64,000 nucleotides of DNA, taken from the NCBI RefSeq assembly GCF_031195445.1, contig NZ_CP133480.1, forward strand, positions 4,022,501-4,086,500, written 5' to 3'. Positions 12,442 through 37,270 of this stretch are shown piece after piece (position 1 is the first letter of the stretch; every line of letters begins with the position of its first letter). Position numbers and translations under genes: made by a program. Below the pieces are notes generated by a model. The model was given only the letters and a program-made list of their open reading frames with translations. It was not told the DNA's origin and ran no database searches. Source of the stretch: Acuticoccus sp. MNP-M23 (GTDB lineage: Bacteria; Pseudomonadota; Alphaproteobacteria; Rhizobiales; Amorphaceae).

Positions 12442-12467
12442 GGAACCTCCACCTTCTGGGCGACGTT
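12442..12467 (+). promoter_or_regulatory. EcfG-type general stress promoter (perfect match)
   Basis: GGAAC at 12442-12446 and CGTT at 12464-12467 are 17 bases apart, exactly the GGAAC-N16/17-CGTT consensus of alphaproteobacterial EcfG sigma factors. Transcription should begin near 12474, just ahead of the 24-aa peptide gene and the envelope-protein operon. The cognate ecfG gene is in this window at 36413-36949. Confidence 0.75.
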
Positions 12468-12507
12468 CAGCCACCAGAATACGCATCTATCGCGATAGGA
12501 GACGACG

Positions 12508-12582
12508 TTGAATAGCTTGATTTATCTTGTGGGCCTTGTGGTTGTTGTTCTTTTCATTCTCAGCATTCTAGGCCTCGCGTAA
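12508..12582 (+). CDS. 24-residue hydrophobic membrane peptide
   Basis: TTG at 12508 follows AGGAGA (12497-12502) by 5 bases and opens a 25-codon frame ending at TAA 12582. The peptide is a single membrane helix: a short polar start (LNS), then IYLVGLVVVVLFILSILGLA. Very small one-helix proteins of this look are found in rhizobial genomes; I do not know an assigned function. It lies 34 bases downstream of the expected start of a general stress promoter and 44 bases before the YqjD-like gene, so it is probably the first gene of that operon. Confidence 0.65.
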   Translation: MNSLIYLVGLVVVVLFILSILGLA

Positions 12583-12626
12583 CCGTATTACGGCGAATCT
12601 AAAATCCTCGAGGAGGGGTTAGATCA

Positions 12627-13199
12627 ATGTCCACCAAACAACAGATCGATCGCGAAGCAGCATCCGCCAAGGATAAGCTTAATGAGGCTTCCGACGAAAT
12701 AAAGAATCAGGCTCGGTCCGCGGTCGATGAAGCGCAGCGCGCTGCGACCAATTATGCCGAAGACGGCAAGAACGTTGCCGCTGGAAGCCTCACCGACTTT
12801 GCCAAGGCTGTGCGCAGCGCGTCTGACGAACTGTCCAGCCGCGACCAGGGCATGGCAGCACGTTTCGTGACCGAAGCGGCTGACGGGCTGGAGCGCGTTG
12901 CAAATTCCGTTTCCGGAACGTCAGTGGAAGAGATGGCGGGTTCCGTCACCGATTTCGCCCGCCGCAATCCCGGTCCGTTCCTTGTCGGCACCGTTCTGGC
13001 TGGCGTCGCGCTCGGCCGGTTCGTGAAGGCGTCGTCGGAGCGCTCCCATGATGCGCCGAGCCACGCCGGCCCTGCGGGCACGCCCTACCGCCCCACCGGC
13101 ACTGCACCGGCCGCATCGCCAGTCCGTCCGGCATCGTCCGCACCGGCGGGCAGCACGGTTGGCACGCCGACGCGTCCCAACGTCAAAACCACCAGCTAA
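12627..13199 (+). CDS. YqjD/ElaB-like envelope protein
   Basis: A 190-residue protein. The N-terminal 120 residues are heptad-like and charged (KDKLNEASDEIKNQARSAVDEA..), probably coiled coil. The segment RRNPGPFLVGTVLAGVALGRFVKAS (about 110-134) resembles the single C-terminal membrane anchor of the YqjD/ElaB group, which binds membranes and ribosomes in E. coli. A Pro/Thr/Ser/Ala-rich tail follows. Start ATG 12627 has GAGGAGG about 9 bases upstream. It is 14 bases before the holin-like gene. Placement behind an EcfG promoter suggests a stress-induced membrane protein; the assignment to YqjD/ElaB rests on architecture rather than strong motifs. Confidence 0.65.
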   Translation: MSTKQQIDREAASAKDKLNEASDEIKNQARSAVDEAQRAATNYAEDGKNVAAGSLTDFAKAVRSASDELSSRDQGMAARFVTEAADGLERVANSVSGTSVEEMAGSVTDFARRNPGPFLVGTVLAGVALGRFVKASSERSHDAPSHAGPAGTPYRPTGTAPAASPVRPASSAPAGSTVGTPTRPNVKTTS

Positions 13200-13213
13200 G
13201 GGGCCCCGCTTGC

Positions 13214-13663
13214 ATGACCAATATTCCTAACCCTCCGCATGATCCTGCTGCGCGGATGGCCGCTGGCCTCTCGCTGCCGGAACTCGCGCAGAAGCTCTTC
13301 CGTGATGTGACAGATCTCTTCCGCAAGGAAGGCGAGCTGATCCGCTCGGAAATGAACGACAAGGTCAGCCAGCTGCAGGTCGGCGTCGGCAAGCTCGCGG
13401 CTGGTGCCGTTGTGCTTCTGGTGTCGCTCATCGTCCTTTCGGACGCGCTTGTGGTCGCGGTTGCCGAACTGATCGGCACTGTCGAGCCCAGCACCGACAA
13501 CACCGGCTGGGCGGCCCTCATTGTTGGCGGCATCTTTGCCGCAGTCGGCGCATTCTTGATCCGCAGCGGATCCAGTGACCTGACGCCTGAAAACCTGACG
13601 CCGGACCGCACTGCAATGCAGGTGCGCCGCGACGGCGAACTTGCCAAGGAGCAGATCCGATGA
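13214..13663 (+). CDS. Holin-like YqjE/Holin-X family membrane protein
   Basis: A 149-residue protein with the build of the 'phage holin family/YqjE' group: an amphipathic N-terminal region (LPELAQKLFRDVTDLFRKEGELIRSEM), then two membrane helices at about 57-80 and 95-115 separated by a short loop, and a polar C-terminus. Despite the name there is no phage context here; members typically accompany YqjD-like and DUF3618 genes, as they do in this operon. Its stop overlaps the next start by four bases. A role in envelope stress is likely, mechanism unknown. Confidence 0.78.
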   Translation: MTNIPNPPHDPAARMAAGLSLPELAQKLFRDVTDLFRKEGELIRSEMNDKVSQLQVGVGKLAAGAVVLLVSLIVLSDALVVAVAELIGTVEPSTDNTGWAALIVGGIFAAVGAFLIRSGSSDLTPENLTPDRTAMQVRRDGELAKEQIR

Positions 13664-14847
13664 CTGAACGGTCCACGACCCAGATCGAACGCGAGGTCGA
13701 GGCCCAGCGCTACGAGGTCGAGGAAACCCTCGACGCACTGCGCAACAAGCTCTCGGCTGGCCAGATGCTCGACACCCTTTCCCGCTCGTTCACGACCGCA
13801 GGCGGGCAGGGCGGCGAGTTCTTCAACAATCTTGGCCGTCAGGTGAAGGAAAACCCGCTGCCGATCGCCATCACCGGCATCGGCCTGGCGTGGCTCCTGA
13901 TGGGCCAGAACCAGAAGCAGACCCCGCCTGCGCTTCCGGCGCCTCGCCGCACGTATCCGCCGCAGTTCACGGCCTACGACCGTGCGCGCTATGCGGCCGA
14001 CGAGACCAGCCACGGTGCCGAGTATGCCGTGAACCGGCTTCGCGGCGGCTATTATGACGTGAAGGCGGAAGCCCGCAATTCTGCCCATGCCGCTTATGAC
14101 CACGCCCGCTACGCTGCGGACGAGGCCAAGCACGGCGCAGAATATGCCGTCGGCCAGATGAAGGCAGGCGCTTACGCGGTGCAGGACGGCGCATCCAATG
14201 CCGCCGGCCGGGTCTACGACAAGGCGCGGCTTGCTGCCGACGAGACCAAGCACGGCGCCAAGTACGTGGGCGACCAGATGAAGGCCGGCGCTTACGCCGT
14301 GAAGGATTCTGCGTCTTCCGCAGCCGATGCGATGTACGACCGGGCGCGCATTGCGGCCGACGAAGTGTCCCACGGCGCTGCGTATGTGAGCGATCAGCTG
14401 AAGAGCGGCGCCTATGCCGTGTCCGACGCAGCGCACAGCGCATACGAAAGCGCCCGCGACACTGCGTATGACGCCGCGGACACCGCCGGTGTCTACGGCC
14501 GCCGCGCACAGCGCACTGTGGTCGATTTCGTCAAGGAAGAGCCGCTGATCGCTGGTGCCGTCGGTCTTGCGCTTGGCGCCGCACTCGGCGCGATCATGCC
14601 GGCCACCCGTCAGGAAGACGAGTTGATCGGCCCGTACCGCGACCGTGCCCGCGATGAGGCGATCGACTACGCCTCCGCGCAGGCCGACAAGGCGAGCCAC
14701 GTTGCCGAGGAGTCCTTCAAGGCTGCCGAGGCCAAGGCCCACGAAGAAGGCCTGATCCCGGAAGAGGGCGACAAGACGGTTGCCGAAAAGGCCGAGGATG
14801 TCGTCAAGGCGGCCAAGACGAAGGCCCGCGAAGAAGCCAAATCCTGA
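13660..14847 (+). CDS. DUF3618 protein with four 40-residue repeats
   Basis: A 395-residue protein. Residues 1-90 match the DUF3618 pattern: TQIEREVEAQRYEVEETLDALRNKLS, then FTTAGGQGGEFFNNLGRQVKENPLPIAITGIGLAWLLMG with one membrane helix. Residues about 106-261 are four tandem repeats built on Y-D-x-A-R-x-A-A-D-E-x-x-H-G-A-x-Y, spaced by 40 residues, Ala/Tyr/Lys-rich and helical, resembling LEA-like or apolipoprotein-like amphipathic repeats. A second hydrophobic helix (LIAGAVGLALGAALGAIMP) and a charged tail follow. It is last in the operon, before a strong terminator. It may tether or coat the membrane under stress; function not established. Confidence 0.75.
   Translation: MTERSTTQIEREVEAQRYEVEETLDALRNKLSAGQMLDTLSRSFTTAGGQGGEFFNNLGRQVKENPLPIAITGIGLAWLLMGQNQKQTPPALPAPRRTYPPQFTAYDRARYAADETSHGAEYAVNRLRGGYYDVKAEARNSAHAAYDHARYAADEAKHGAEYAVGQMKAGAYAVQDGASNAAGRVYDKARLAADETKHGAKYVGDQMKAGAYAVKDSASSAADAMYDRARIAADEVSHGAAYVSDQLKSGAYAVSDAAHSAYESARDTAYDAADTAGVYGRRAQRTVVDFVKEEPLIAGAVGLALGAALGAIMPATRQEDELIGPYRDRARDEAIDYASAQADKASHVAEESFKAAEAKAHEEGLIPEEGDKTVAEKAEDVVKAAKTKAREEAKS
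13975..14442 (+). repeat. Tandem 120-bp coding repeats in the DUF3618 gene
   Basis: Repeat units begin at the TAC/TAT-GAC codon pair at 13975, 14095, 14215 and 14335, exactly 120 bases apart; the fourth is cut to about 108 bases and runs into a shorter related stretch (YESARDTAYDAAD). Units differ at many third positions, so the array is old rather than a recent slippage product. Confidence 0.85.
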
Positions 14848-14873
14848 AGCCAACGCTTCAAGGCAAGACGAAG

Positions 14874-14901
14874 AAGGGCGCCCTTGTGGCGCCCTTTTTT
14901 T
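14874..14901 (+). terminator. Rho-independent terminator of the stress operon
   Basis: AAGGGCGCC at 14874-14882 pairs perfectly with GGCGCCCTT at 14888-14896 around a CTTGT loop, and the T-run continues to 14901. It closes the operon 27 bases after the DUF3618 stop. Confidence 0.92.
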
Positions 14902-14932
14902 GTGCCAGCTCATATTTTGGACGCCAACCGAC

Positions 14933-14957
14933 GGAACTTCACCGCGAGTTGTGCGTC
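14933..14957 (+). promoter_or_regulatory. Weak EcfG-like promoter before the MscS gene
   Basis: GGAAC at 14933-14937, 16 bases, then CGTC at 14954-14957: one mismatch to the EcfG -10 element with acceptable spacing. It lies 95 bases before the MscS start and after the preceding terminator. One mismatch makes this tentative. Confidence 0.3.
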
Positions 14958-15051
14958 GGTTTCACATGACGCTGCGTTGAACGATTCTTTCGTTGGCGTA
15001 GCCGGCGACGCGGCAGCTTCAACACCGTTGCTGCCAAAGGCGGGAGAAATC

Positions 15052-16803
15052 GTGACGATGAGATGGACCAGAATTTTGGCGGCGTTGGTCGCATCAGTCT
15101 GCCTTTGGGGCGGCGGTGCGCTGGCGCAGGGGAGCGGACCGGACGTCTTCAAGGTGGACGCGCTCAATGCAGGCCTGCCGGCGCCGCCGCAGGGGCTGGA
15201 CCGCACGACGCCGCAGTCCACCCTTGAGGCCTTCCTCCGGGCCAATGGCCGGACCGACTATCGCACCGCCGCCTATCTTCTTGATCTCGCCGACATACCG
15301 GACGCCGAGCAGGCCGCGCGCGGCCCGGAACTCGCCCGCAAGCTCGGCCTCGTCATTGAACGCAAGATCCCGCTCGACCTGGCTGCGATCCCGGACCGGC
15401 CGGACGGGATGGAAACGATGGGCACCAGCCGCGAGCCGATGGTCGGCGAGCCGCGCAAGAGCATCAGCCTCGGACAGCTCGATCTGGAGCGCTGGCCGGT
15501 CTCCGTGCGCATCAACCGTGTCCAGGCGGGGGATGACGCGTCCCCGGTGTGGGTGTTCTCCCGCCAGAGCGTCGAGCACATCGACGCGCTGTTCAAGCGC
15601 TACGGCCCGACACCGCTTGAAAAGGCAATGCCCGGCGCCCTGCGGACCGATGCCTTCTGGGGGCTGATGTGGTGGGAGGTGATCGCCATCCCGCTGATTT
15701 TCGCCGCCACGGTGCTGATCGGCTACATCTTCTACCGCCTCTTCGGGATTGTGGAGCGGCGCGTGCCGTTCGGGCCTGTGGAGGATGTGGTGCGCCTGCT
15801 GAAGCTGCCCATCATCCTCATCATCCTTGCCGCCTTTGTGCAGGTGGTGGTGATGAAGACGTTCGTGTTCTCCGCAGGGGCCGACACGTCGGTGAGCACG
15901 GTCTTCTGGCTTCTGATCCTTGTGGCGCTCGTGGTGGGCGTATCGCGGGTGATGGACGCCATCATCGACAACACGTCGGACAGGTACCTCGAGCGCATCG
16001 ACAAGCCCGAGAACACCCGCGCGCGCATGTGGTACACCAATCTTTCGGCGGCCAAGCGCATCGGCATCATTATCGTCCTGGTGGTCGGCGTTGCGATCGC
16101 ATTCTCGTCGTTGCGTCTGTTCTCCAGCTTCGGACTCAGCCTGCTGGTGTCGGCTGGTGTCGCCACGGCCGTGTTGGGCCTTGCCGCACAGACGGTGCTC
16201 GGCAACATCTTCGCCTCGCTGCAGCTCGCGATCGCCCAGCCCATCCGGATCGGCGATTCGGTTTTGTATGACGGGCAGTGGGCGCATGTGGAGAAGATCA
16301 ACTACACCTTCGTCCAGCTTCGCACGTGGGACCAGAAGCGCTTCATCGTCCCGGTCAAGAATTTCATTTCCAACGCTTTCGAGAACTGGACGATGGAAGA
16401 GCCGGAGATGATCAAGCCGGTGGAGCTGAAGCTCGACCACCGGGTCGACGTGGAGTTTCTGCGCCGGGAGTTCCGCAAGATGGCGGAGGAGGACGAGGAT
16501 TTCGTCGATCACGCCGACCCGAAGGTGCAGGTGATCAGTCAGGACGAGGACGGCATCATGCTGCGCTTCTACTGCACCGCCGCCGACCCGAGCACTGCCT
16601 GGGACCTGCACTGCCGCATCCGCGAGCGGCTGATGGCCGTTGTGCGCACGCTGGACGAGCCCTCCGGCCTGCCCCGCACCCGGATTGCCTACGTGTCGAA
16701 CACGGTGGACAGCGATGCCGCCGGGCCGCGCACCGACACCGGCAAGCCCAATCCCGACACCGGCGAGCCCGGCGAAAAGACGGTGGAACAAGCGGCGCAG
16801 TGA
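15052..16803 (+). CDS. MscS-family mechanosensitive ion channel
   Basis: A 583-residue inner-membrane channel expected to open under membrane tension during osmotic downshock. A signal peptide (residues 1-25, ending ALAQ) precedes a periplasmic domain of about 180 residues (LDRTTPQSTLEAFLRANGR..). Then come membrane helices from about residue 200 and the MscS core: LSLLVSAGVATAVLGLAAQTVLGNIFASLQLA is the pore-lining helix, followed by the QPIRIGDSV beta domain and a Lys/Pro-rich polar tail. Start GTG 15052 is 5 bases after GGGAG; ATG 15058 two codons on is equally possible. An upstream open extension to 14884 overlaps the terminator and is not coding. Confidence 0.9.
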   Translation: MTMRWTRILAALVASVCLWGGGALAQGSGPDVFKVDALNAGLPAPPQGLDRTTPQSTLEAFLRANGRTDYRTAAYLLDLADIPDAEQAARGPELARKLGLVIERKIPLDLAAIPDRPDGMETMGTSREPMVGEPRKSISLGQLDLERWPVSVRINRVQAGDDASPVWVFSRQSVEHIDALFKRYGPTPLEKAMPGALRTDAFWGLMWWEVIAIPLIFAATVLIGYIFYRLFGIVERRVPFGPVEDVVRLLKLPIILIILAAFVQVVVMKTFVFSAGADTSVSTVFWLLILVALVVGVSRVMDAIIDNTSDRYLERIDKPENTRARMWYTNLSAAKRIGIIIVLVVGVAIAFSSLRLFSSFGLSLLVSAGVATAVLGLAAQTVLGNIFASLQLAIAQPIRIGDSVLYDGQWAHVEKINYTFVQLRTWDQKRFIVPVKNFISNAFENWTMEEPEMIKPVELKLDHRVDVEFLRREFRKMAEEDEDFVDHADPKVQVISQDEDGIMLRFYCTAADPSTAWDLHCRIRERLMAVVRTLDEPSGLPRTRIAYVSNTVDSDAAGPRTDTGKPNPDTGEPGEKTVEQAAQ

Positions 16804-16826
16804 ACCGCGTTCTCGGCCGATGACAG

Positions 16827-16856
16827 CGCCGGCAGCCTTCGGGTTGCCGGCGTTTT
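16827..16856 (+). terminator. Rho-independent terminator after the MscS gene
   Basis: CGCCGGCAGCC at 16827-16837 pairs with GGTTGCCGGCG at 16842-16852 around a TTCG tetraloop (one G-T pair), followed by TTTT. Strong stem, short T-run. Confidence 0.85.
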
Positions 16857-16986
16857 GCGTTGCGGCATCCGGCAGGGAATTGCGCGATCGAGGGGAGGGG
16901 CGGATTGTTGGGTGTGCGCGCGTTCGCGCTTACCGCAGGCCTTTGACGGCTGCGCCATAAACCAGCTGTGATGTGGAATGGCGGCG

Positions 16987-17061
16987 TGGCTCCCCGGGAC
17001 GGATTCGAACCATCGACCAACCGGTTAACAGCCGGTTGCTCTACCGCTGAGCTACCGGGGA
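16987..17061 (-). tRNA. tRNA-Asn (anticodon GUU)
   Basis: On the minus strand the acceptor stem TCCCCGG (17061-17055) pairs with CCGGGGA (16997-16991), followed by discriminator G and an encoded CCA (16989-16987). The D-arm (GTAGCTCAGCGGTAGAGC), anticodon loop CTGTTAA with GTT, and T-arm (GGTTCGAATCC) are all present. No intron or damage is seen. Confidence 0.97.
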
Positions 17062-17215
17062 AAGGCGCACGCGCTGGAGGCCGTATAGCAATGGGTTCTC
17101 CGCGACGCAACACGCAAAGCCGATGAATTTCGCCTTATTCACCCGGGGTCGCGGCGAGGCTTGCGCGGCACTAAGGTCGCCGGCGCGCCATAGCGGACGC
17201 AGCCGAAGGAGTGAC

Positions 17216-17824
17216 ATGAACACCAGCGACGATGATGCGCGTCATGCCGAGAAAATGCGCAAGATCAAGGATGCCCGAGACAAGATGATGGCGGCCAAGA
17301 CCATCGAGAAAGGCCTGCTCATTGTTCACACCGGCAAGGGGAAGGGCAAATCCACCGCAGCATTCGGCATGGCGATGCGGGGGATCGGCCACCAGATGCG
17401 CATCGGTATCGTGCAATTCATCAAGGGTGCCATCGAAACCGGCGAAAGCGCGGTGCTGAATGCGTTCCCGGAGCAGGTGACGATGAAGCGGATGGGGGAG
17501 GGGTTCACCTGGGAAACCCAGGACAAGACGCGCGACATTGCCGCCGCGGGCGCCGCCTGGGCGGAGGCAAAGTCGATGATCGCGTCAGGAGACTACGACA
17601 TGGTCATCCTGGACGAGCTGAACATCGCGCTGCGCTACGACTATGTGGATATCGACGAGGTGGTGGCGTTCCTGAAGGCGCGGCCTGCTGGTGTCCATGT
17701 GGTGGTCACCGGGCGCAATGCGAAGGAACCGCTGATCGAGGCGGCGGATCTCGTCACCGAGATGACGATGGTCAAGCATCCGTTCCGCGACGGGGTGAAG
17801 CCTCAGGCCGGCATCGAGTTCTGA
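17216..17824 (+). CDS. cobO: Cob(I)yrinic acid a,c-diamide adenosyltransferase
   Basis: Attaches the adenosyl group of ATP to the cobalt of reduced corrinoids, in B12 synthesis and salvage. The P-loop is TGKGKGKSTAAFG at about residue 40; IGIVQFIKGA, MVILDELNIALRYDY and HVVVTGRNAKEPLIEAADLVTEM are characteristic of CobO/BtuR. Length 202 aa is typical. Start ATG 17216 lies 4 bases after AAGGAG; the open frame extends to 17123 without support. It is separate from cobS-cobT (9 kb away) and converges on the lipoprotein gene. No cobalamin riboswitch is visible upstream. Confidence 0.95.
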   Translation: MNTSDDDARHAEKMRKIKDARDKMMAAKTIEKGLLIVHTGKGKGKSTAAFGMAMRGIGHQMRIGIVQFIKGAIETGESAVLNAFPEQVTMKRMGEGFTWETQDKTRDIAAAGAAWAEAKSMIASGDYDMVILDELNIALRYDYVDIDEVVAFLKARPAGVHVVVTGRNAKEPLIEAADLVTEMTMVKHPFRDGVKPQAGIEF

Positions 17825-17848
17825 GCGGCCTGAGGCTTCGTCAGTGCC

Positions 17849-18115
17849 TTAGTAGGGGCAGTTGACCGGGTCGCCGTACTGGTTGACGCAGCGGCGGCCG
17901 CGCGGCGTGGTCGCGGCGCCGACGATGGCACCACCAGCAGCACCGATGCCGGCACCGACGAGTGCGCCGCCAGCGTTGGCGCCGGCAGCCGTGGCAACCA
18001 CGGCACCGGTCGCTGCGCCGAGACCGGCGCCGACCAGAGCGCGGTCACCCTCGTTGTTGGAGTTGCAGCCAGCCAGACCGGCGATCATGGCGATTGCGAG
18101 TAGCGTTTTCTTCAT
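17849..18115 (-). CDS. Glycine-zipper lipoprotein
   Basis: An 88-residue outer-envelope lipoprotein. MKKTLLAIAMIAGLAGC is a lipoprotein signal with lipobox LAGC, so Cys17 should be lipidated. The mature part has repeated GxxxG-type stretches (ALVGAGLGAATGAVV, AGGALVGAGIGAAGGAIVG) typical of glycine-zipper membrane helices of the 17-kDa antigen/YmgG type, then a short tail with two cysteines (RRCVNQYGDPVNCPY). Start at 18115 with GGAGGG upstream on the minus strand. A palindromic EcfG-like promoter lies 60 bases upstream. Such small lipoproteins are often stress-induced; the precise role is unknown. Confidence 0.85.
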   Translation of the reverse strand: MKKTLLAIAMIAGLAGCNSNNEGDRALVGAGLGAATGAVVATAAGANAGGALVGAGIGAAGGAIVGAATTPRGRRCVNQYGDPVNCPY

Positions 18116-18174
18116 TGGAGCCCTCCTTACGAGCGCCGCGGAGCGCGAGCGCATGTGGTGTCATTCGACGGCGG

Positions 18175-18200
18175 AACATTAATGACAGGTGAAGGGTTCC
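18175..18200 (-). promoter_or_regulatory. Candidate EcfG-type promoter of the lipoprotein gene
   Basis: On the minus strand GGAAC (18200-18196), 17 bases, then TGTT (18178-18175): one mismatch to GGAAC-N17-CGTT. With the adjoining bases it forms a palindrome GGAAC-N18-GTTCC at 18173-18200, the same form as in the nepR-phyR gap. Predicted start of transcription is about 50 bases before the lipoprotein ATG. Confidence 0.5.
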
Positions 18201-18373
18201 GCCCCCCGGCCGGTCACGATGCTTTCCGTTTTCCATGGTGTCACGAGTGGTGCAAAAAAGCATCGATCGTGGCTCACCCCTACACCAAGACGCGCAATTG
18301 TGGCGAGGATTTGTGGCCTGTCTGCAGCGGACCGGGAGAGCACTGATCCACCGGGATTCCCCCGCGCAGGAAC
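18201..18373. other. Non-coding gap between lipoprotein promoter and glnA terminator
   Basis: About 170 bases with no frame showing family motifs, a ribosome binding site or a start in a sensible place on either strand. Together with the flanking promoter and terminator it makes up the 18116-18436 gap. Confidence 0.5.
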
Positions 18374-18403
18374 AAAAAAAGCCAGGGGCAAACCCCTGGC
18401 TTT
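18374..18403 (-). terminator. Rho-independent terminator of glnA
   Basis: GCCAGGGG at 18381-18388 pairs with CCCCTGGC at 18393-18400 around CAAA; read on the minus strand it is followed by a run of seven T (A-run 18374-18380). It lies 33 bases after the glnA stop. Confidence 0.92.
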
Positions 18404-18436
18404 CGTTTCGTCGAAGATGCGCCGTGGCGCCGCGGA

Positions 18437-19846
18437 TCAGACCGAGTAGTAGAGGTCGAATTCCACGGGGTGCGGGGTCATCTCGTAACGCATGTTCTCT
18501 TCCATCTTCAGCTCGATGTAGGCATCGATCTGATCGTCGTCGAACACGCCGCCAGCCGTCAGGTAGGTGCGGTCGGCGTCGAGCGAGGCGAGGGCTTCGC
18601 GCAGCGAACCGGCAACGGTCGGGATGTTCTTCAGCTCTTCCGGCGGCAGGTCGTAGAGATCCTTGTCCATCGGCTCGCCCGGATGGATGCGGTTCTTGAT
18701 GCCGTCTAGGCCGGCCATGCACATTGCCGCGTAGGCGAGGTACGGGTTGGCCGAAGGATCGGGGAAGCGGACTTCGAGGCGCTTGCCCTTGGGCGAAGAC
18801 GCGATCGGGATACGGCAGGAGGCCGAACGGTTGCGCGCCGAGTAGGCGAGCAGCACGGGGGCTTCATAGCCCGGGACCAGACGCTTGTAGGAGTTGGTCG
18901 ACGGGTTGGTGAAGGCGTTCAGCGACTTGGCGTGCTTCAGGATGCCGCCGATGTAGAAGAGGCACATCTCGGAGAGGTCGGCGTAGCCGTCGCCAGCGAA
19001 GAGTGGCTTGCCCTCGTTCCAGATCGACTGGTGAACGTGCATTCCGGTGCCGTTGTCGCCGAAGACGGGCTTGGGCATGAAGGTTGCCGTCTTGCCGTAG
19101 GCGTTGGCGACCTGGTGAACCACGTACTTGTAGACCTGCATGTGGTCGCCGATGCGGGTCAGCGTGTCGAACTTGAGGCCAAGTTCGTGCTGGGCCGCGG
19201 CCACTTCGTGGTGGTGCTTTTCGACCGACACGCCCATTTCGGTCATCACCGAGAGCATCTCGGAGCGCATGTCCTGCGCCGAATCGATCGGCGGCACGGG
19301 GAAGTAGCCGCCCTTGGTGCGCGGACGGTGGCCAAGGTTACCGGTCTCGTACTCGGTGCCCATGTTGGTGGGCAGCTCGGTCGAGTCCAGCTGGAAGCCG
19401 GTGTCGTACGGGTTCACCGCAAAGCGCACGTCGTCGAACACGAAGAACTCGGCTTCCGGGCCCATGGTGATGGTGTCGCCGATGCCGGACGACTTCACGT
19501 AGGCTTCGGCCTTCTTGGCGGTGGTGCGCGGGTCGCGGTTGTAGGCCTCGCCGGTCGACGGCTCCAGGATGTCGCAGAAGAGCGCCATCGTGGTCTGCGC
19601 GAAGAACGGGTCGATGTGGGCGGTTTCGGGGTCCGGCATCAGAAGCATGTCGGACTCGTTGATCGCCTTCCAGCCGGCGATGGACGAGCCGTCGAACATC
19701 GTGCCGTCGGCGAAGATGTCTTCGTCGACCATGCTGACGTCCATCGTGACGTGCTGCATCTTCCCGCGCGTGTCGGTGAAGCGCAGGTCGACGAATTTGA
19801 CGTCCTTGTCGCTGAGGTCCTTGAGGATGTTCTGGGCTGTGCTCAT
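18437..19846 (-). CDS. glnA: Type I glutamine synthetase
   Basis: ATP-dependent amidation of glutamate, the main ammonia-assimilating enzyme, working as a dodecamer in the cytoplasm. Motifs: [31 protein letters not shown] (metal ligands), the ATP-site [16 protein letters not shown], the flap region [20 protein letters not shown], and KDLYDLP with Tyr398, the residue adenylylated by GlnE. Length 469 aa is exactly typical. It follows glnB on the same strand, 218 bases downstream, the standard alphaproteobacterial glnBA pair, so nitrogen control through PII, GlnD and GlnE is expected. A second glutamine-synthetase-like gene at 49738 lacks the adenylylation site. Confidence 0.98.
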
Positions 19847-20015: not shown

Positions 20016-20064
20016 AAATTGACAGGGCGGCGACCGCTCGGGCCGCCACGCCAGGCTGTTTGTC

Positions 20065-20409
<345 letters not shown>

Positions 20410-30428: not shown

Positions 30429-30443
30429 GCGGACACGCAAACC

Positions 30444-30467
30444 GGCGCGGCCAGAGGAGGCCGCGCC
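30444..30467 (+). repeat. Hairpin just after lon
   Basis: GGCGCGGCC at 30444-30452 pairs perfectly with GGCCGCGCC at 30459-30467, loop AGAGGA. No T-run follows. With the next hairpin it may form a double terminator. Confidence 0.6.
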
Positions 30468-30481
30468 GCAAGACGGCCATC

Positions 30482-30509
30482 AGACCCGTGCCTCAGGCGC
30501 GGGTCTTTT
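30482..30509 (+). terminator. Rho-independent terminator of lon
   Basis: AGACCCGTGCC at 30482-30492 pairs with GGCGCGGGTCT at 30496-30506 (one T-G pair), loop TCA, then TTT. About 55 bases after the lon stop. Confidence 0.85.
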
Positions 30510-30795
30510 GCGTCCGGTTGGCGCAGAAGGCGCAGTTTCCCTGGCTCCACCGCCAAAACGTGGTGGGAGTGTGATTCGCACGCAGATGTGAACCCGTGAA
30601 ACGCGAATTCTTCACTTTTATTGCGCCTTACTTCCCCGGTTCCTGAACAAATTATCTCGTCAAAATGGGAATTTTTCTCTTTCGTAATGTTTGAGGTGCA
30701 GATTCTCTAGGAAAACTGCGGCAAATCGGTATCGGTGCGCTTGCGCCGCAGCATTTGAATGCCAAAGTAAATCTGGCATTGTGGAATGGAGAATC
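30510..30795 (+). promoter_or_regulatory. AT-rich upstream region of the HU gene with a 7-bp hairpin
   Basis: This 286-base stretch is clearly richer in A and T than the genes around it, as expected for a strong promoter region. AATGCCA at 30758-30764 is inverted as TGGCATT at 30774-30780 with 9 bases between, 7 bases before the GGAG of the HU ribosome binding site. The hairpin could affect HU translation or be a binding site. No gene seen. Confidence 0.4.
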
Positions 30796-31074
30796 ATGAT
30801 GAAGAAGTCAGAACTCGTAGCAGAGGTGGCGACGTCCACCGAGCTCAACCAGAAAGACGCGACGAAGGCGGTTGACGCCACCTTCACCGCAATCATCGAG
30901 GCGCTGAAGAGCGGCGACGAGGTTCGTATCTCGAACTTCGGTGTTTTTGCCGTGCAGCAACGCCCCGAGTCCCAGGGGCGCGACCCGCGCTCGGGCGAGG
31001 CGATCACCATCAAGGCCGCCAAGGTCCCCAAATTCCGTCCGGGCAAGCCCCTGAAGGACGCGCTGAACGCGTAA
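30796..31074 (+). CDS. DNA-binding protein HU
   Basis: Small histone-like protein that bends DNA and shapes the nucleoid; works as a dimer. The sequence is canonical: MMKKSELVAEVATSTELNQKDATKAVDATFTAI, GDEVRISNFGVFAV, the DNA-gripping arm QRPESQGRDPRSGEAITI with the conserved proline region, and KVPKFRPGKPLKDALN. Length 92 aa (91 if the second ATG is used). GGAG precedes the start. Placed just after lon, the usual site for hupB. The frame is open upstream to 30691 but that part is not HU-like. Confidence 0.96.
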   Translation: MMKKSELVAEVATSTELNQKDATKAVDATFTAIIEALKSGDEVRISNFGVFAVQQRPESQGRDPRSGEAITIKAAKVPKFRPGKPLKDALNA

Positions 31075-31124
31075 GCCTTCAATAATGAGAAGTGCCGTGG
31101 CGCGCCCCGCGCCCCGGCAAGCAG

Positions 31125-31157
31125 AAGGGCCTGCGCCATTCATGGCGCAGGCCCTTT
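31125..31157. terminator. Bidirectional terminator between HU and the AI-2E gene
   Basis: AAGGGCCTGCGCCAT at 31125-31139 pairs perfectly over 15 bases with ATGGCGCAGGCCCTT at 31142-31156, loop TC. The A-start and T-end let it act on both the HU transcript (plus) and the converging AI-2E family transcript (minus). Confidence 0.88.
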
Positions 31158-31197
31158 GTCGTTCTGGCCTGCCGCTCGTGCGGCAGGGGCGCTGTGA

Positions 31198-32403
31198 TCA
31201 GGCGGCAGTCTTGCTGGATATCTCTCCGGCCTCGGAATCCTTCTCGGCCCTTTCCTCCGCTTTCTCCTCAGCAGCGGTCGCCCCGGACAGGAAGACGCCG
31301 AGGCCCGCAAGCGGCGGCACATTATCGGCCACCACCTTGGTGATGATGAGAATAGGCACGGCGATGATCACGCCGGGGACACCCCACAGAAAACCCCACA
31401 GCGCGATGGACAGAAGGATCGCAACCGGGTTGATTTCCAGCCGGTGGCCCAGCACCGCCGGTGTGATGAAGTGGCCCTCAATGGTGGTGATGGTGAAATA
31501 GGCGATCGGTGGAACAAGCGCCCACTCGATGGAATCGAACGCGATCAGCGCGACCAATGCTGACGATACGGTGCCCACCAGCGAACCGACGAACGGCAGG
31601 AAGTTCAGCAGGAAGGCGGCCAACCCCCAGACGGCAGGGCTCGGCATCCCGGCAATCCAGAATGCGAAGAAGATACACACGCCGAAACCGGCATTGATCA
31701 GCGTAATGGTCAGCAAGTATTTCGATACGATCGTGACGATATTGTTGACGACCGTCAGCGATCTTTTCTTGTCCGATAATTTGGGTGATGAATGGACGAT
31801 CTTTTCGTAGATCAGCCGATTGGTCACGAGCAGGAAGTAGGTGAGGGCGATTGCCACCACCACGGTTGATGCAATGCTGCTGAGGTTGGTCGCGGCGCGG
31901 TTGAGGAGACCCGGCTGGCGGACCACCACCTCGCCGACATTGGTGTCGGTTGTAGACTGGGTGATCTCGTCGACTTCGCGGCTGGCGCGCGTGATCGAAT
32001 CAACCGGCCCACGGAAATCCTTCAACCGCTCGCGCAGCTGCGCCCCGATGCGCGGCGCGTCATCGATCCAGGAGGAGATGGGCGTGGACAGCGTTGCGAC
32101 AGCAAGGCCGACGCCAATCGTCAGGACGCCCACCAGAAGGAGTGCCGAGAGGCCGGCCCAGATCCGCTTTTGAAGCCACAGGTTGATCGGGGTGAGTGTC
32201 AGCGAGATCACGAAGGCCAGAACCACCGGCAAAAGGAGGCTCTGGGCATAATCGAGCGCGGCAAAAGAGGCGATTGTCGCTAGGATGATGAGCGGGACTT
32301 TAACGCCGCTTCCCACATTCACCCTTTCAGGTTTGGGTGGAGGTGAGGCCTGCCCGTTATTGGTATCTTCTCCAGGCGCGGAGGTTGGCGAAACGGCAGT
32401 CAA
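31198..32403 (-). CDS. AI-2E family transporter (PerM/YdiK-like permease)
   Basis: A 401-residue inner-membrane protein with the AI-2E/UPF0118 layout: a Pro/Ser-rich N-terminus, two or three membrane helices (about 38-100), a polar extra-membrane domain (about 105-185) and five further helices. Family signatures: TPAVLGHRLEINPVAILLSIALWGFLWGVPGVIIAVPIL. Members include a putative AI-2 exporter and Na+/H+ antiporter-like proteins, so the substrate is open. An Ala/Glu-rich tail follows. It diverges from the BrkB-type gene. A weak EcfG-like promoter (32447-32472) precedes it. Confidence 0.88.
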   Translation of the reverse strand: MTAVSPTSAPGEDTNNGQASPPPKPERVNVGSGVKVPLIILATIASFAALDYAQSLLLPVVLAFVISLTLTPINLWLQKRIWAGLSALLLVGVLTIGVGLAVATLSTPISSWIDDAPRIGAQLRERLKDFRGPVDSITRASREVDEITQSTTDTNVGEVVVRQPGLLNRAATNLSSIASTVVVAIALTYFLLVTNRLIYEKIVHSSPKLSDKKRSLTVVNNIVTIVSKYLLTITLINAGFGVCIFFAFWIAGMPSPAVWGLAAFLLNFLPFVGSLVGTVSSALVALIAFDSIEWALVPPIAYFTITTIEGHFITPAVLGHRLEINPVAILLSIALWGFLWGVPGVIIAVPILIITKVVADNVPPLAGLGVFLSGATAAEEKAEERAEKDSEAGEISSKTAA

Positions 32404-32446
32404 TGGTCACGCTCCTATGGCGGCGCCGAATGGCGATCCATATGGT

Positions 32447-32472
32447 AACGCAGCGAGTCGCCTGTACGTTCT
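32447..32472 (-). promoter_or_regulatory. Weak EcfG-like promoter before the AI-2E gene
   Basis: On the minus strand AGAAC (32472-32468), 17 bases, CGTT (32450-32447): a perfect -10 and spacing, with one mismatch in the -35. It ends 44 bases before the ATG of the AI-2E family gene. Confidence 0.35.
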
Positions 32473-32508
32473 GTGCAAGTTGCGATGAATCAGGGTTAGG
32501 GTCACAAA

Positions 32509-33543
32509 GTGGATGACGCGCCGCGCAAAAGCGCGAAGCTGAACGCCAATGGCGGTGCGCACGACGGCCTGGCGCCTGAGCGTCTGCCCTATCACGAACG
32601 CCAGCATGGCCGCGCAGCGCACAGCCCACTCGATATCGGGTGGCGCGGCTGGTGGGACATCCTGCGCCGTGTCTTCCAGCGCATTGCCATCGACAATCTC
32701 GGCCTCGTGACGGCAGGGGTCACCTTCTACATCTTCCTTGCGCTCATTCCGGCTGTGATTGCGGTGGTCTCCTTCTACGGCATCATGACCGACGCGGTGA
32801 CGCTCGCGAACCATGTCAGCTTCCTGCACGGCTACGTGCCGGATCAGGCGCTGGAGTGGATCGGCGGCGAGATCGGGCGCATCGGCAAGTTCCAGAGCCA
32901 GGGGCTGACCGTTGCCTTTGCGCTCAGTCTCGGGCTTTCGCTGTGGTCGATGAACAACGCCGTGGTGGCCTGGTTCAGCGCGATGAACGTCGCCTACGGC
33001 GAGGTGGAGAAGCGCAGCACCGTCGGTCTTTATCTGCGCTGTTTCGCCTTCACGCTGGTCTCGCTGATCATCGGGATGATGATGATCGGCTTCATCGTCC
33101 TGCTGCCGCTTCTCATGCACGCGTCCACGCCGGGCGGGTTCGATTATGGCGGGCGGCGGGTGTCTGCACCGGCGCTTTTCGTGGTTGTGGCGGTGGGCGC
33201 TGCGGCCATTTACCGGATCGGCCCGAGCCGGCGGCCGGCTAAGGCGCGCTGGCTTGCCGTTGGCGCGATCTTTTCGGCGGTCGGCTGGATCTCAGCGTCG
33301 ACACTTCTGTCTTGGTATCTGTCCAATATTGCAAATTACGCCGCGATGTATGGTTCGCTTGGAACGATAATCGCGCTCATGTTTTGGCTCTATATCTCTG
33401 TCTACATTTTGATGACAGGGGCGTGGCTGAACTCGGAAGTGGAGCACCAGACCATGGTTGACACCACAATCGGGCCTCCTCGCCCGATGGGAAGACGCGG
33501 TGCGTATGTTGCTGATACGGTAGGGAAAAAGGCATCGCGTTGA
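32509..33543 (+). CDS. YihY/BrkB family membrane protein
   Basis: A 344-residue inner-membrane protein of the YihY/BrkB ('virulence factor BrkB', formerly RNase BN) family. It has a polar N-terminus of about 60 residues, then six membrane helices. Family sequence features: DNLGLVTAGVTFYIFLALIPAVIAVVSFYG, LSLGLSLWSMNNAVVAWFSAMNVAYGE, and MYGSLGTIIALMFWLYISVYILMTGAWLNSEVE. The biochemical function of the family is not settled; the RNase name is an old misattribution. Start GTG 32509 is weakly supported (AGGG upstream). It diverges from the AI-2E gene. Confidence 0.88.
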   Translation: MDDAPRKSAKLNANGGAHDGLAPERLPYHERQHGRAAHSPLDIGWRGWWDILRRVFQRIAIDNLGLVTAGVTFYIFLALIPAVIAVVSFYGIMTDAVTLANHVSFLHGYVPDQALEWIGGEIGRIGKFQSQGLTVAFALSLGLSLWSMNNAVVAWFSAMNVAYGEVEKRSTVGLYLRCFAFTLVSLIIGMMMIGFIVLLPLLMHASTPGGFDYGGRRVSAPALFVVVAVGAAAIYRIGPSRRPAKARWLAVGAIFSAVGWISASTLLSWYLSNIANYAAMYGSLGTIIALMFWLYISVYILMTGAWLNSEVEHQTMVDTTIGPPRPMGRRGAYVADTVGKKASR

Positions 33544-33905
33544 ATGATCGCATCTCGATCCCCTTCCAAGCCAAAGGATCGAGGTATCTTGAATACGGAG
33601 CAGCGTCCTGCCGCCCCGAGCACAATTCAGCTGACCCGGTCCGCACTATATTTTGCGACTATGTGCCATGCCGCTGCTGGACGGGTCAGGTCCGCTGATC
33701 TACCCGAGACGGCGCTGGGGCGTTTTTCGGGGCTCGGGCCGAATCAGTCAGGCTGGCGGCAGATGCTGTTCGAACTGCAGACCAAGACGCCGAAGCCTGG
33801 ACTATGGCCGGACGGGAAAGAGTTTAAATTGAAAGCCTCGGGTTCATCCACTGACGGGGGCGCAGCGCTGCTGCCTGCTTGGTGGTGTGGCGGCGGTCGC
33901 GCGCG
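33544..33905 (+). other. Gap between the BrkB-type gene and the HWE kinase
   Basis: A 362-base stretch. CTCGATCC at 33554-33561 is inverted as GGATCGAG at 33576-33583 and could be a weak terminator for the BrkB-type gene. A frame from 33544 to 33909 is open, but it starts right after the previous stop without a ribosome binding site and its product has no family-like features, so I do not call it a gene. The kinase promoter should be here. Confidence 0.45.
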
Positions 33906-35693
33906 ATGACGGCTGCCGGCGTCGTCCTTCCTGCCACGGTGTTCGTGCTGCTTGCGATGACTTTGCTCGTTTCGGCACTGTGCGTCCGGGCCGTGTCCAC
34001 GCGGGTGGCTTTGTCGGCCGCGGCCACAGGCGTCTTCGGCCTTGTTCTGGTTCGGATTGCGGCGCTCGACCCGTTGCTTGCCGGCGGCTGGTTCCAGTTC
34101 GCCGTGCAGTCCACAATCTTCTCGCTCGGTATCGCAGTGCTCATGCTGGCGGCGTTCATCAGCGCGCTTGTCAGCCTCAGAGCCCGGTTCCGCCGGCGCG
34201 ACTCCCTCGCCCTGATCCCGTCTGTCGATCTTGTGGAGCGCTCGGAAGACACGCGGACCGCGCGATTGCGCCGCCTGTTGCGGGGCGAGCACGACAAGGC
34301 GGTCACCGCGAACGAGATGCACCGCTACCTTGAGATGGCCACGGCCAATTCGCAGATCACCATCTACCTGCAAAACACCCGGCTTCAATATCTCTGGATC
34401 GTCAACCCGCGCATGAACCTTGGTTCGGGCAACGTCCTCGGGCTGACCGATGAGGACCTCATTCCGCCGGACATGCAGCCGCTTGTGATCGGCCACAAGA
34501 TGCGTGCGATCAAGACCGGCACAAAACAGACATTCGAGCTCGAGCTGCCGGATGGCGCTGATTCAGCGTGGTTCCGTGTCGACGTCGTGCCGATCCGCGA
34601 GGACGGGGAGGATGTCACCGGGATTGTCTGCGCAGCAATCGATATCACCCGTGCCAAACGTCTCGACATGATGCGAACCGACCTGTCGCGCCGTCTGGCC
34701 GAAACGCTCCAGCGGTTCAACCTGGCGCTGCGCAGCGAGAAGATCAGCGTGTTCAGCCAGGATCTGACCATGCGCTACACGTGGGCCAATGCCGACGAAA
34801 CGCTTGTGGGCTCGCTGATCGGGCGCACGGATGAAGACGTGCTGCTGCCGTCGGATCTCGGCCCCATCGCCAAGCTGAAGCGCGGTGCCATCGAGAGCAA
34901 GCGGCCGCAGTCCGGTGAGATCGGCGTCGGGGAGGGTGGCGACCGCCGCTGGTACGATCTGCATGTGGAGCCGAACATCCGCACGGACGGGCAGGTGACG
35001 GGGATCACCTGCGCGTCGATCGACATTACGGATCGCAAGCGCAACGAGGAGCATATGCGGCTCGTCATGCGCGAGCTGACGCACCGGACCAAGAATCTGC
35101 TGGCTGTGGTCATTGCCATTGCACGCCAGACATCCGCCAACGCGACCGATACCGAAGCGTTCGTGACGGCGTTGATCGGCCGGCTGCGTGCGCTGTCGGC
35201 CGCGCAGGACCTCATCGTGGCCGACGACTGGGCCGGCGTTGCGGTGGACGACCTCGTCAATGTTCTGCTGCGCCAGAGCGTTGCCAGCGGCAACGCCCGC
35301 GTGAAGGTCGACGGGCCGCGGCTGATCATCTCGCCGGAGGCGGCGCAGAATTTCGGTCTGGCGATCCACGAGTTGATCACCAACGCCGTCAATTATGGCT
35401 CCCTGTCGTCACCGACGGGCCTTCTTTCCGTCTCCTGGACCGTGCGGCCGGACGAGAACGGGGAGGAAGAAATTTCGCTGCACTGGAGCGAAGAGAAGGG
35501 GCCAGCGGCCAAGGAGCCTGACCGGCGCGGCTTCGGGATGATGGTCATCGAACGCAGCCTTGCCCGTGCCCTCAAGGCCAAGGTGACGCTGGACTTTGCG
35601 CCGGACGGGCTATGCGCCGAGATCCGCATGCCCACGGCGGGGCTGCTGCCGCAAACGCGCGGAGACCAGGAAAAGCTCGCGCAAGTCAATTGA
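33906..35693 (+). CDS. HWE-family sensor histidine kinase with two PAS domains
   Basis: A 595-residue membrane kinase. Residues 1-100 contain three hydrophobic helices; two PAS domains follow (about 135-255 and 270-380), each ending in the ITGI/VTGI..DIT element. The kinase core has the phospho-acceptor His393 in ELTHRTKNLLAVV and an HWE-type ATPase domain: FGLAIHELITNAVNYGSLS (N box), EISLHWSEEKGP (the HW-E motif) and RRGFGMMVIERSL. It lies 720 bases from ecfG-nepR-phyR, so it is a good candidate for the kinase that phosphorylates PhyR. ATG 33906 is my choice; GTG 33882 or 33885 would add eight residues. No strong ribosome binding site. Confidence 0.88.
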   Translation: MTAAGVVLPATVFVLLAMTLLVSALCVRAVSTRVALSAAATGVFGLVLVRIAALDPLLAGGWFQFAVQSTIFSLGIAVLMLAAFISALVSLRARFRRRDSLALIPSVDLVERSEDTRTARLRRLLRGEHDKAVTANEMHRYLEMATANSQITIYLQNTRLQYLWIVNPRMNLGSGNVLGLTDEDLIPPDMQPLVIGHKMRAIKTGTKQTFELELPDGADSAWFRVDVVPIREDGEDVTGIVCAAIDITRAKRLDMMRTDLSRRLAETLQRFNLALRSEKISVFSQDLTMRYTWANADETLVGSLIGRTDEDVLLPSDLGPIAKLKRGAIESKRPQSGEIGVGEGGDRRWYDLHVEPNIRTDGQVTGITCASIDITDRKRNEEHMRLVMRELTHRTKNLLAVVIAIARQTSANATDTEAFVTALIGRLRALSAAQDLIVADDWAGVAVDDLVNVLLRQSVASGNARVKVDGPRLIISPEAAQNFGLAIHELITNAVNYGSLSSPTGLLSVSWTVRPDENGEEEISLHWSEEKGPAAKEPDRRGFGMMVIERSLARALKAKVTLDFAPDGLCAEIRMPTAGLLPQTRGDQEKLAQVN

Positions 35694-35746
35694 GGACGGC
35701 GCGGCTTCGAGGCATGCCGGCTCCCGCAAATTTGAATATATGACAA

Positions 35747-35772
35747 GGAACTTGGTGCGAGCCGGGCTCGTT
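35747..35772 (+). promoter_or_regulatory. EcfG-type general stress promoter (perfect match)
   Basis: GGAAC at 35747-35751, 17 bases, CGTT at 35769-35772. It lies in the gap after the kinase and directs transcription into the unknown gene at 35843, with an expected start near 35779. Confidence 0.75.
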
Positions 35773-35842
35773 GGTCGAGAGTGTGTGATTGCAGTAATCG
35801 AGTGAGCGCGGTGCAAATCCGCCTCATCGTCCGAGGTCTTTG

Positions 35843-36310
35843 ATGGAGTTCGAAGCGAAGGAACGATGCTGGCAGGAGATCGACCGAATCTCCACTGGGG
35901 TTCTCGTCCATCAGCCAGCCGCTGACCGACGGGCGCTTCCTGTGAACGGCTTTTGCTGCCGTCGCTCCAGTGTCATTGAGCTTTACGCCTCCCTGGACGC
36001 AGCCGAGGGCCTGGAACTCCAGCAGGGGATGACGGTCTGCATCAATTTTGCCGACGCCATCGAATGCGTGTTCGTTTCGCTTCAGGCGAGCATCTCCGGA
36101 GTTGATTGCTCAGGAAACGCCCGGCCGGCTGCTGACCGGAAAAAGAGCACGCCGTGCAGCGTTGGCAGCGGTGTCATGATTGCGGTCCGCCCTTTGACGG
36201 CCGAGTTCTGGGAGCCGCCGGGCCGCGGCTTCATGGATGCGCTTGATATTCTCACCCAGGGCACGAACGACTCGCACACCCTGTCGGCACCGCGGACAAT
36301 CAGGTTCTGA
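35843..36310 (+). CDS. Unknown protein inside the general stress locus
   Basis: A 155-residue soluble protein I do not recognise. It starts MEFEAKERCWQEIDR, has a strand-rich middle (SVIELYASLDAAEGLELQQGM, TVCINFADAIECVFVSLQA) that could be a small beta-barrel, and ends in a Pro/Thr-rich tail. It has seven cysteines, high for a cytoplasmic protein of this size. GAGG lies 6 bases before ATG 35843. Third-position GC is high, as in real genes nearby. A perfect EcfG promoter directly upstream and a terminator directly downstream support it as an expressed single gene of the stress regulon. Confidence 0.6.
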   Translation: MEFEAKERCWQEIDRISTGVLVHQPAADRRALPVNGFCCRRSSVIELYASLDAAEGLELQQGMTVCINFADAIECVFVSLQASISGVDCSGNARPAADRKKSTPCSVGSGVMIAVRPLTAEFWEPPGRGFMDALDILTQGTNDSHTLSAPRTIRF

Positions 36311-36347
36311 GCGGAGAGCGCTGCCAACCCCGAAATGATCGCGTAAT

Positions 36348-36381
36348 AAGAAAGGGCCTGCCGTGCGGCAGGCCCTTTCTT
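36348..36381. terminator. Bidirectional terminator between the unknown gene and ecfG
   Basis: AAGAAAGGGCCTGCC at 36348-36362 pairs perfectly over 15 bases with GGCAGGCCCTTTCTT at 36367-36381, loop GTGC. It serves the plus-strand unknown gene and, in reverse, the ecfG end at 36413. Confidence 0.9.
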
Positions 36382-36412
36382 GTTGCTGGTCAGGCGTCCT
36401 CGCGGCAGCGCA

Positions 36413-36949
36413 TCAGAACTTGCGCGAATCGACCACCGAACGGCTGTGATGGTCCGGCCCATACTCGCCACCCGACTGGACGGACAGAAGCTCTGCCAGC
36501 TTGGTGCGCGCCCGGTTCACCCGGCTTTTCACCGTGCCGACGGCGCAGCCACAGATTTCGGCGGCTTCGTCGTACGAGAAGCCGGACGCGCCGACCAGAA
36601 CCAGCGCCTCGCGCTGGTCAGACGCCAGCTTCCCGAGCGCTTCGCGGAAATCCACCATGTCGAGGTGGCCCAGCTGCTCGGGATGCGTGGCAAGGTTGGC
36701 GGCCATCTTGCCGTCGGCATCCTCCACCTCGCGCCGCTTTTTCCGAAAATCGGAATAGTAGACGTTGCGCAGGATGGTGAAGAGCCATGCGCGCATGTTG
36801 GTGCCGGGTTCGAACATGTCGATGCTTGCCCATGCCTTCATCAGGGCTTCCTGCACCAGATCGTCCGCCCGCTCGGCATTGCCGCTGAGGCTGACAGCGA
36901 ATGCGCGCAGATTGGGGATCTGCCGGATGAGTTCTTCGCGGACAGTCAT
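36413..36949 (-). CDS. ecfG: EcfG-type general stress RNA polymerase sigma factor
   Basis: A 178-residue ECF15-group sigma factor, master of the alphaproteobacterial general stress response. Region 2: LIRQIPNLRAFAVSLSGNAERADDLVQEALMKAWASIDMFEPGTNMRAWLFTILRNVYYSDFRKKRREVED; region 4: LASDQREALVLVGASGFSYDEAAEICGCAVGTVKSRVNRARTKLAELL. The C-terminal tail (GEYGPDHHSRSVVDSRKF) is short. Its ATG overlaps the nepR stop (ATGA), the standard nepR-ecfG operon, and an autoregulatory-looking EcfG promoter lies upstream of nepR. In unstressed cells NepR is expected to hold it inactive. Confidence 0.95.
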   Translation of the reverse strand: MTVREELIRQIPNLRAFAVSLSGNAERADDLVQEALMKAWASIDMFEPGTNMRAWLFTILRNVYYSDFRKKRREVEDADGKMAANLATHPEQLGHLDMVDFREALGKLASDQREALVLVGASGFSYDEAAEICGCAVGTVKSRVNRARTKLAELLSVQSGGEYGPDHHSRSVVDSRKF

Positions 36950-37143
36950 TGTTTGTCGGCCGTCCCGGAATCGTCGCTTTCTGGGTTTTGCGGCAGGTCG
37001 ATCGCGTCAAGCTGGGTCAGAAGCTCGACGATGCGGTCGGGAATGGGTTCGGTCAGAACGGATTCGTACATGACCTTGAGCTGGGTGCCGATCACGTCCT
37101 GCAGAGGATCATCCTCTTCTTTCCCTCTGGGATCGTCTGACAT
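36946..37143 (-). CDS. nepR: Anti-sigma factor NepR
   Basis: A 65-residue anti-sigma factor that binds EcfG, and is itself bound by phosphorylated PhyR in a partner switch. The NepR core is clear: IGTQLKVMYESVLTEPIPDRIVELLTQLDAID, with the two helices joined by a Pro-containing turn; both ends are acidic and probably disordered, as usual. It is first in the operon, with the stop overlapping the ecfG start by four bases, so sigma and anti-sigma are made together. Confidence 0.95.
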   Translation of the reverse strand: MSDDPRGKEEDDPLQDVIGTQLKVMYESVLTEPIPDRIVELLTQLDAIDLPQNPESDDSGTADKQ

Positions 37144-37242
37144 TGGGGTCCTTTATGTCGTTCTCAAGCAGGCTGGACGGAGGTGCAGAAAGTGCACGCT
37201 GATGCACATTGCCACCAAACGGTTTTTTTTGCGTTCGCACAT

Positions 37243-37270
37243 GGAACGATAGTGGCAGGAGAATTGTTCC
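37243..37270. promoter_or_regulatory. Palindromic divergent EcfG promoter of nepR-ecfG and phyR
   Basis: The sequence is GGAAC-N18-GTTCC (37243-37247 and 37266-37270). Read on the minus strand it is GGAAC-N17-CGTT, a perfect EcfG promoter toward nepR-ecfG (starting about 90 bases before the nepR ATG). Read on the plus strand it is GGAAC-N17-TGTT, one mismatch, toward phyR about 100 bases away. Both readings use the same bases, so polymerase cannot occupy both at once. Confidence 0.75.

Follow-up and report, generated by a model that had tools for sequence, protein, structure and literature searches.

The 64,000-nucleotide stretch of the marine bacterium Acuticoccus sp. MNP-M23 analysed here (the window: positions 4,022,501 to 4,086,500 of contig NZ_CP133480.1, with coordinates below counted from its first letter) carries the central regulators of the general stress response of Alphaproteobacteria together with some of its targets. 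Our subject is the promoters of this response and, above all, a short palindrome that separates nepR-ecfG, the genes of the anti-sigma factor and the sigma factor, from the divergent phyR. Profile searches recognise all the regulators that a first-pass annotation of the same DNA had named: an EcfG-type sigma factor, NepR, PhyR and a PAS-containing HWE kinase.

The gene of the EcfG-type extracytoplasmic function (ECF) sigma factor, ecfG (36413 to 36949, minus strand, 178 amino acids), matches Sigma70_r2, r4_2 and NF009199 (270 bits, cut-off 219); four further equivalog models of this type also give strong matches, with scores below their cut-offs. Its relatives in Acuticoccus yangtzensis, A. 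mangrovi and A. kalidii are 88-92% identical, and those in two metagenome genomes 87-90%. The adjacent anti-sigma factor gene, nepR (36946 to 37143, minus strand, 65 amino acids), is identified by PF18557 (50.1 bits, cut-off 25.7), while NF051865 stays below its own cut-off (23.1 against 100). On the plus strand, phyR (37377 to 38153, 258 amino acids) encodes the anti-anti-sigma response regulator; the protein matches NF006623 (363 bits, cut-off 240) and has the PhyR_sigma2, PhyR sigma-like and receiver domains that identify it as PhyR. The HWE histidine kinase (33906 to 35693, plus strand, 595 amino acids; HWE_HK 3.6e-21, PAS_4 1.3e-20) is a candidate PhyR kinase and would act on PhyR.

This is the organisation of the PhyR-NepR-EcfG system of Alphaproteobacteria, with which the window shares the three genes, the divergence of ecfG-nepR from phyR, a candidate HWE kinase and GGAAC-N16/17-CGTT promoters. 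According to passages of PMC4814048, ecfG-nepR is mostly divergent from phyR, both units are under EcfG promoters, and their co-regulation probably preserves stoichiometry. The window differs in that a single overlapping palindromic box appears to serve both arms.

The box between nepR and phyR

The palindrome, GGAACG-N16-TGTTCC, covers 28 base pairs (bp) at 37243 to 37270 and is proposed here as the shared bidirectional EcfG promoter of nepR-ecfG and phyR. Read leftward (37245 to 37270, minus strand) it gives GGAAC-N17-CGTT, 101 bp before nepR-ecfG; read rightward (37243 to 37268, plus strand) it gives GGAAC-N17-TGTT, 108 bp before phyR. One sequence carries promoter elements for both strands, which is the symmetry expected of a bidirectional promoter. 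The first-pass annotation had reported the leftward site, which is indeed present and is kept in all seven other genus members, and had missed the half that faces phyR. The arms overlap since the complement of GGAAC, GTTCC, includes the GTT of the -10 element CGTT. As judged from the sequence, changes at three to five bases would make a one-way EcfG site bidirectional.

A box of the form GGAACG-N15/16-YGTTCC lies between nepR-ecfG and phyR in 8/8 genus members, with spacers of 16 or 17 bases in both readings. The rightward -10 element is CGTT in six of the eight and TGTT in the window and in genome G001. In an alignment of the interval from the eight members, 159 ungapped columns separate the start codons and 14 of these are invariant: 11 in the arms of the box (GGAACG and GTTCC), three elsewhere and none in the spacer. 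First-order Markov resampling produced such a box in 1 of 16,000 regions. A box serving nepR-ecfG alone would leave its first GG unconstrained, and one serving phyR alone would leave the final CC and the G at the sixth base unconstrained. All of these are invariant, which argues for use in both directions.

No such box was found between nepR and phyR in 22 loci outside the genus. We have also surveyed 50 phyR upstream regions, one genome per genus, drawn from the PhyR matches listed; here 'leftward' means facing away from phyR, the identity of the leftward gene as nepR not being established for each genome. EcfG sites occur in both directions in 20 regions, facing phyR only in 14, facing away only in six, and in neither direction in ten. 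An overlapping two-way box is present in two regions, L216 and L201, the latter with an additional, separate leftward site. For the remaining 18 of the 20 genera that carry sites in both directions, no overlapping box was found.

Placement of the motif in the window and the genome

The three perfect GGAAC-N17-CGTT sites of the first-pass annotation, at 12442 to 12467 (plus), 35747 to 35772 (plus) and 37245 to 37270 (minus), are all present. A fourth match in the window (16785 to 16811) has a spacer of 18 bases and was left out of this count. For GGAAC-N16-18-CGTT, four matches were observed in the window against 1.75 expected, and at least four occurred in 10 of 100 shuffles. The entire genome (5.16 Mb) contains 58 matches with a spacer of 16 or 17 bases, 62 with a wrong spacer of 20 or 21 bases and 100 to the pattern read backward. 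There is no overall enrichment, therefore, and motif counts by themselves were rejected as evidence, the wrong-spacer and backward patterns being equally common or commoner.

The position of the matches is more informative. A genome scan setting intergenic against coding DNA, as the first-pass annotation had suggested, was carried out with a simple gene caller written for the purpose and trained on the window and the fetched loci. It compared 57 distinct correct-spacer sites with 61 wrong-spacer sites; one correct-spacer site (L018, a copy of L006 with an identical 86-base context) was dropped from the 58, and one wrong-spacer site, located in L042, a locus fetched for a correct-spacer site, was missed. 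Correct-spacer sites are intergenic in 32 of 57 cases, compared with 14 of 61 for the control (Fisher p 3e-4), and 21 of 57 are both intergenic and no more than 250 bp upstream of a start on the same strand, compared with 1 of 61 (Fisher p 4e-7). If the missed control site is counted against the claim, these values become 7e-4 and 3e-6. Correct-spacer sites thus favour promoter positions, and given this excess over the wrong-spacer control we regard the motif as a real promoter signal here. The pair L006 and L018 is a perfect intergenic match that occurs twice in the genome in identical surroundings, as in a repeated element.

The motif alone does not define a regulon, since 25 of the 57 perfect matches fall within coding DNA. 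The first-pass view that a regulon can be read directly from the motif is not supported by this figure, nor by two predicted targets that have lost their sites in relatives (see below). Its statement that all three window sites lie at promoter distance from a gene holds for those at 12442 and 37245; the site at 35747 precedes an open reading frame (ORF) that the gene caller did not call, and is for this reason outside the 21. Its assumption of EcfG use fares better: placement, together with the conservation within the genus of the 12442 and nepR-ecfG sites, makes it very probable that the window sites are EcfG (general stress) promoters.

Predicted targets of the other sites

The site at 12442 to 12467 (plus strand) was detected by the motif scan and is kept in six of the seven other genus members (N17 in five, N16 in G007); in G001, where the operon itself is poorly conserved, it was not found. 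The first-pass annotation placed it correctly before an envelope-protein operon and overlooked the first gene, which encodes a hydrophobic, single-helix membrane peptide of 24 amino acids (12508 to 12582, plus strand) with a good ribosome site. Over 15 pairs of six genus copies its codons show 178 synonymous and 25 non-synonymous differences, with five differences at the second codon position against 188 at the third. It has no entry in the protein family libraries searched. Matches to the peptide occur in 36 of 150 genomes searched (E up to 1); in G007 the match (E 0.0165) precedes the site instead of following it. Outside the genus, an EcfG site on the coding strand lies within about 100 bp of the peptide at 5 of 24 loci; for distances up to 400 bp, seven of the 24 loci have one on the coding strand against three on the opposite strand. 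This is only suggestive of the micropeptide as an order-wide EcfG target.

The peptide is followed on the same strand by genes for an apolipoprotein-like helical protein (12627 to 13199, 190 amino acids; PF01442 28.2 bits, below the cut-off of 90), a Phage_holin_3_6 family membrane protein (13214 to 13663, 149 amino acids; PF07332 3.2e-21; start at 13256 according to our gene caller) and a DUF3618 protein (13660 to 14847, 395 amino acids; PF12277 25.7 bits, cut-off 24.9).

The site at 35747 to 35772 (plus strand), also from the motif scan, precedes an ORF of 155 amino acids (35843 to 36310, plus strand). The site is partly conserved: the window and G001 have it in perfect form, G003 has it with TGTT, and G002 and G005 with one mismatch; G004 has none, and G006 only a distant one-mismatch site, unusable at this place. 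The first-pass annotation called the gene unknown, a description that did not survive the search for homologues. These occupy the same place in six of the seven other genus genomes, at 24-33% identity (EcfG is 87-92% identical there), and all seven homologues tested, namely these six and a seventh from a different family (G083), match Pyrid_ox_like/general stress protein 26 (GSP26; PF16242). A TGTT site precedes the G083 homologue by 62 bp. The window ORF itself matches no Pfam family, including PF16242, at E up to 1, and we therefore call it a diverged relative and not a member of PF16242. A structural model of the ORF, built with four named relatives whose presence in the alignment may steer it, reached a predicted local distance difference test score of 77.1, and its best structural match is the GSP26 crystal structure 2qea (E 1.5e-5, template modelling score 0.61). 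The ORF thus shares with the family both homology, by way of the genus members, and a predicted split-barrel fold, and differs in being too diverged for the Pfam model. Compared with its relatives the window copy has a nine-column insertion and a gap in the conserved WxPxxDAWF stretch; given this insertion and partial loss, it may be decaying or changing function.

An imperfect site, GGAAC-N17-TGTT (39962 to 39987, plus strand), lies 181 bp before a gene for a protein of 173 amino acids with a signal-peptide-like N-terminus, as judged by eye, and no Pfam family (40169 to 40690, plus strand). Before the orthologues of this gene a site is present in five of the six regions examined (CGTT in four, TGTT in one; none in L162), a sample that does not include G001. 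The 39962 site probably drives 40169.

Elsewhere in the genome, 20 downstream proteins were run against Pfam: 19 of those behind the 21 promoter-position sites (the other two are in the window) and one at 270 bp. PRC-barrel matches were obtained for four of the 20, and further families include DUF892, DUF305, ExoD, a CBM48/alpha-amylase protein and short-chain dehydrogenases. Passages of PMC6599016 include PRC-barrel and GSP26-type genes in the EcfG target list of Sphingomonas melonis. Symmetric EcfG-like sites also lie between divergent genes at L024, beside a PRC-barrel gene, and at L033, beside trkH, both genes being among the 20. The trkH site was not found in any of the six other genus genomes scanned and the PRC-barrel site in none of the five scanned (a scan that did not take in L303 of G001 and L304 of G010). 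As the sites are not kept in these genomes, L024 and L033 were rejected as further two-way promoters.

Several neighbouring features of the window may be recorded here. A DNA photolyase-family gene (38542 to 39903, minus strand; PF00875) adjoins phyR and has no perfect EcfG site of its own. In L162 a CsbD-like gene (PF05532) lies between a BrkB-family gene and the HWE kinase gene, and similar sequences are present in L163 and L165; the corresponding part of the window (33544 to 33905) contains no called gene and an ORF without a Pfam match, so CsbD may have been lost here. In addition, a near-symmetric imperfect site occurs at 18173 to 18200, reading GGAAC-N17-TGTT leftward and GGAAC-N17-GGTT rightward. 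Its leftward reading lies 59 bp before a small gene (17849 to 18115) with a weak glycine-zipper match below the cut-off.

A proposed shared promoter for the stress switch

From the observed sequences, gene identities, placement statistics and conservation we infer EcfG use, two-way activity, exclusivity and bias in the following scheme. When stress sets in, PhyR, which an HWE kinase like the neighbouring one probably phosphorylates, would capture NepR and free EcfG, which would then transcribe from GGAAC-N16/17-CGTT sites. The sigma and anti-sigma factor genes (nepR-ecfG) and the anti-anti-sigma gene (phyR) would share the palindrome as their promoter. With the -35 GGAAC of each strand overlapping the complement of the other strand's -10 element, one box of 27-28 bp would recruit EcfG polymerase in two mutually exclusive orientations, leftward for nepR-ecfG and rightward for phyR. 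In this strain a bias towards nepR-ecfG is to be expected, because the leftward -10 is the consensus CGTT and the rightward one TGTT. The remaining sites would drive the envelope operon led by the 24-residue peptide, the GSP26-like gene and probably 40169. Taken as a whole, we consider it likely that the control genes are driven by one shared bidirectional EcfG promoter and the window targets by the other sites. That two EcfG promoters, once back to back, were merged within the genus into one palindrome which fires in one direction at a time is a more tentative proposal, to which we would give slightly less than an even chance.

The notion of two orientations used one at a time would follow from the geometry of ECF promoters and from the two-way promoters of Escherichia coli. 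For the latter (Warman, Grainger and colleagues), passages of PMC12825309 state that symmetry permits polymerase to bind in either orientation, that strong activation of one direction can repress the other and that lower noise was seen. Symmetry and two exclusive polymerase orientations are what the box would have in common with these promoters. The E. coli promoters have a symmetric, shared -10 element, whereas here each -35 overlaps the -10 of the other strand, the sigma factor is of the ECF type and two-way transcription is predicted. A palindromic or two-way EcfG promoter was not found in the openly licensed literature, among the matches listed, which is no proof of novelty.

Several observations weigh against a shared promoter, and some would fit a box that is a one-way promoter of nepR-ecfG, with a coincidental rightward reading and phyR served by another promoter. 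In the window and in G001 the rightward reading has TGTT as its -10 element (the -10 box of the EcfG sigma family is described as flexible in passages of PMC7083833). Three of the eight genus members carry a further rightward site 42 bp left of the box, which may make phyR independent of the box there. Symmetric boxes are not enriched genome-wide, with five per strand in this genome against ten for the backward-read pattern, and were rejected as a class. The overlaps at L201 and L216 may be coincidence, which would count against our interpretation, or may have an independent origin. According to PMC12825309, basal two-way transcription in E. coli is too weak for polymerases to compete. A one-way box nevertheless seems unlikely: the bases that serve the rightward reading only do not vary among the eight members, with just three invariant columns outside the box (a background taken from poorly alignable DNA and possibly understated), the rightward element is CGTT in six of the eight, and 34 of the 50 other genera have a site facing phyR.

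A conserved inverted repeat between divergent genes might be an operator for a dimeric regulator, instead of or besides a promoter. We think this very doubtful, as the arms fit the EcfG -35 and -10 elements with spacings of 16-17 in both readings, and other genera have separate EcfG sites in the same interval. Still less probable is that GC-rich DNA produced the window sites by chance; the motif shows no overall excess in window or genome and the trkH and PRC-barrel sites are lost in relatives, but the sites are placed at promoter positions and two of the three are conserved throughout the genus. For the site at 35747 the product might be a non-coding RNA and not the ORF. Passages of PMC3892343 describe such a case, ReC64 of Rhizobium etli, which lies downstream of the phyR and kinase genes and has an EcfG1 promoter, and the ORF has a coding potential too weak to be called and no Pfam match. 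We nonetheless judge this improbable given the homologous frames at the same place in six other genus genomes, all six matching PF16242, and an Rfam search of 35500 to 37500 that yielded just one sub-threshold match (mir-3158).

Neither the general stress response nor its promoters are new. On the evidence at hand, the putative fused two-way EcfG box, kept through the genus, appears to be a new variant, and the 24-residue peptide would add a tiny membrane protein to the stress regulon. The stress switch is governed by the relative amounts of EcfG, NepR and PhyR, and one symmetric promoter shared by the divergent units would, if confirmed, be a very compact way of coupling them. The fused palindrome would hard-wire the ratio of sigma and anti-sigma factor to anti-anti-sigma factor and damp its noise, one DNA element of 28 bp setting the stoichiometry of the partner switch. 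Two-way promoters would then extend from symmetry of the -10 element to the case of an ECF sigma factor, with -35 and -10 elements overlapping across the strands.

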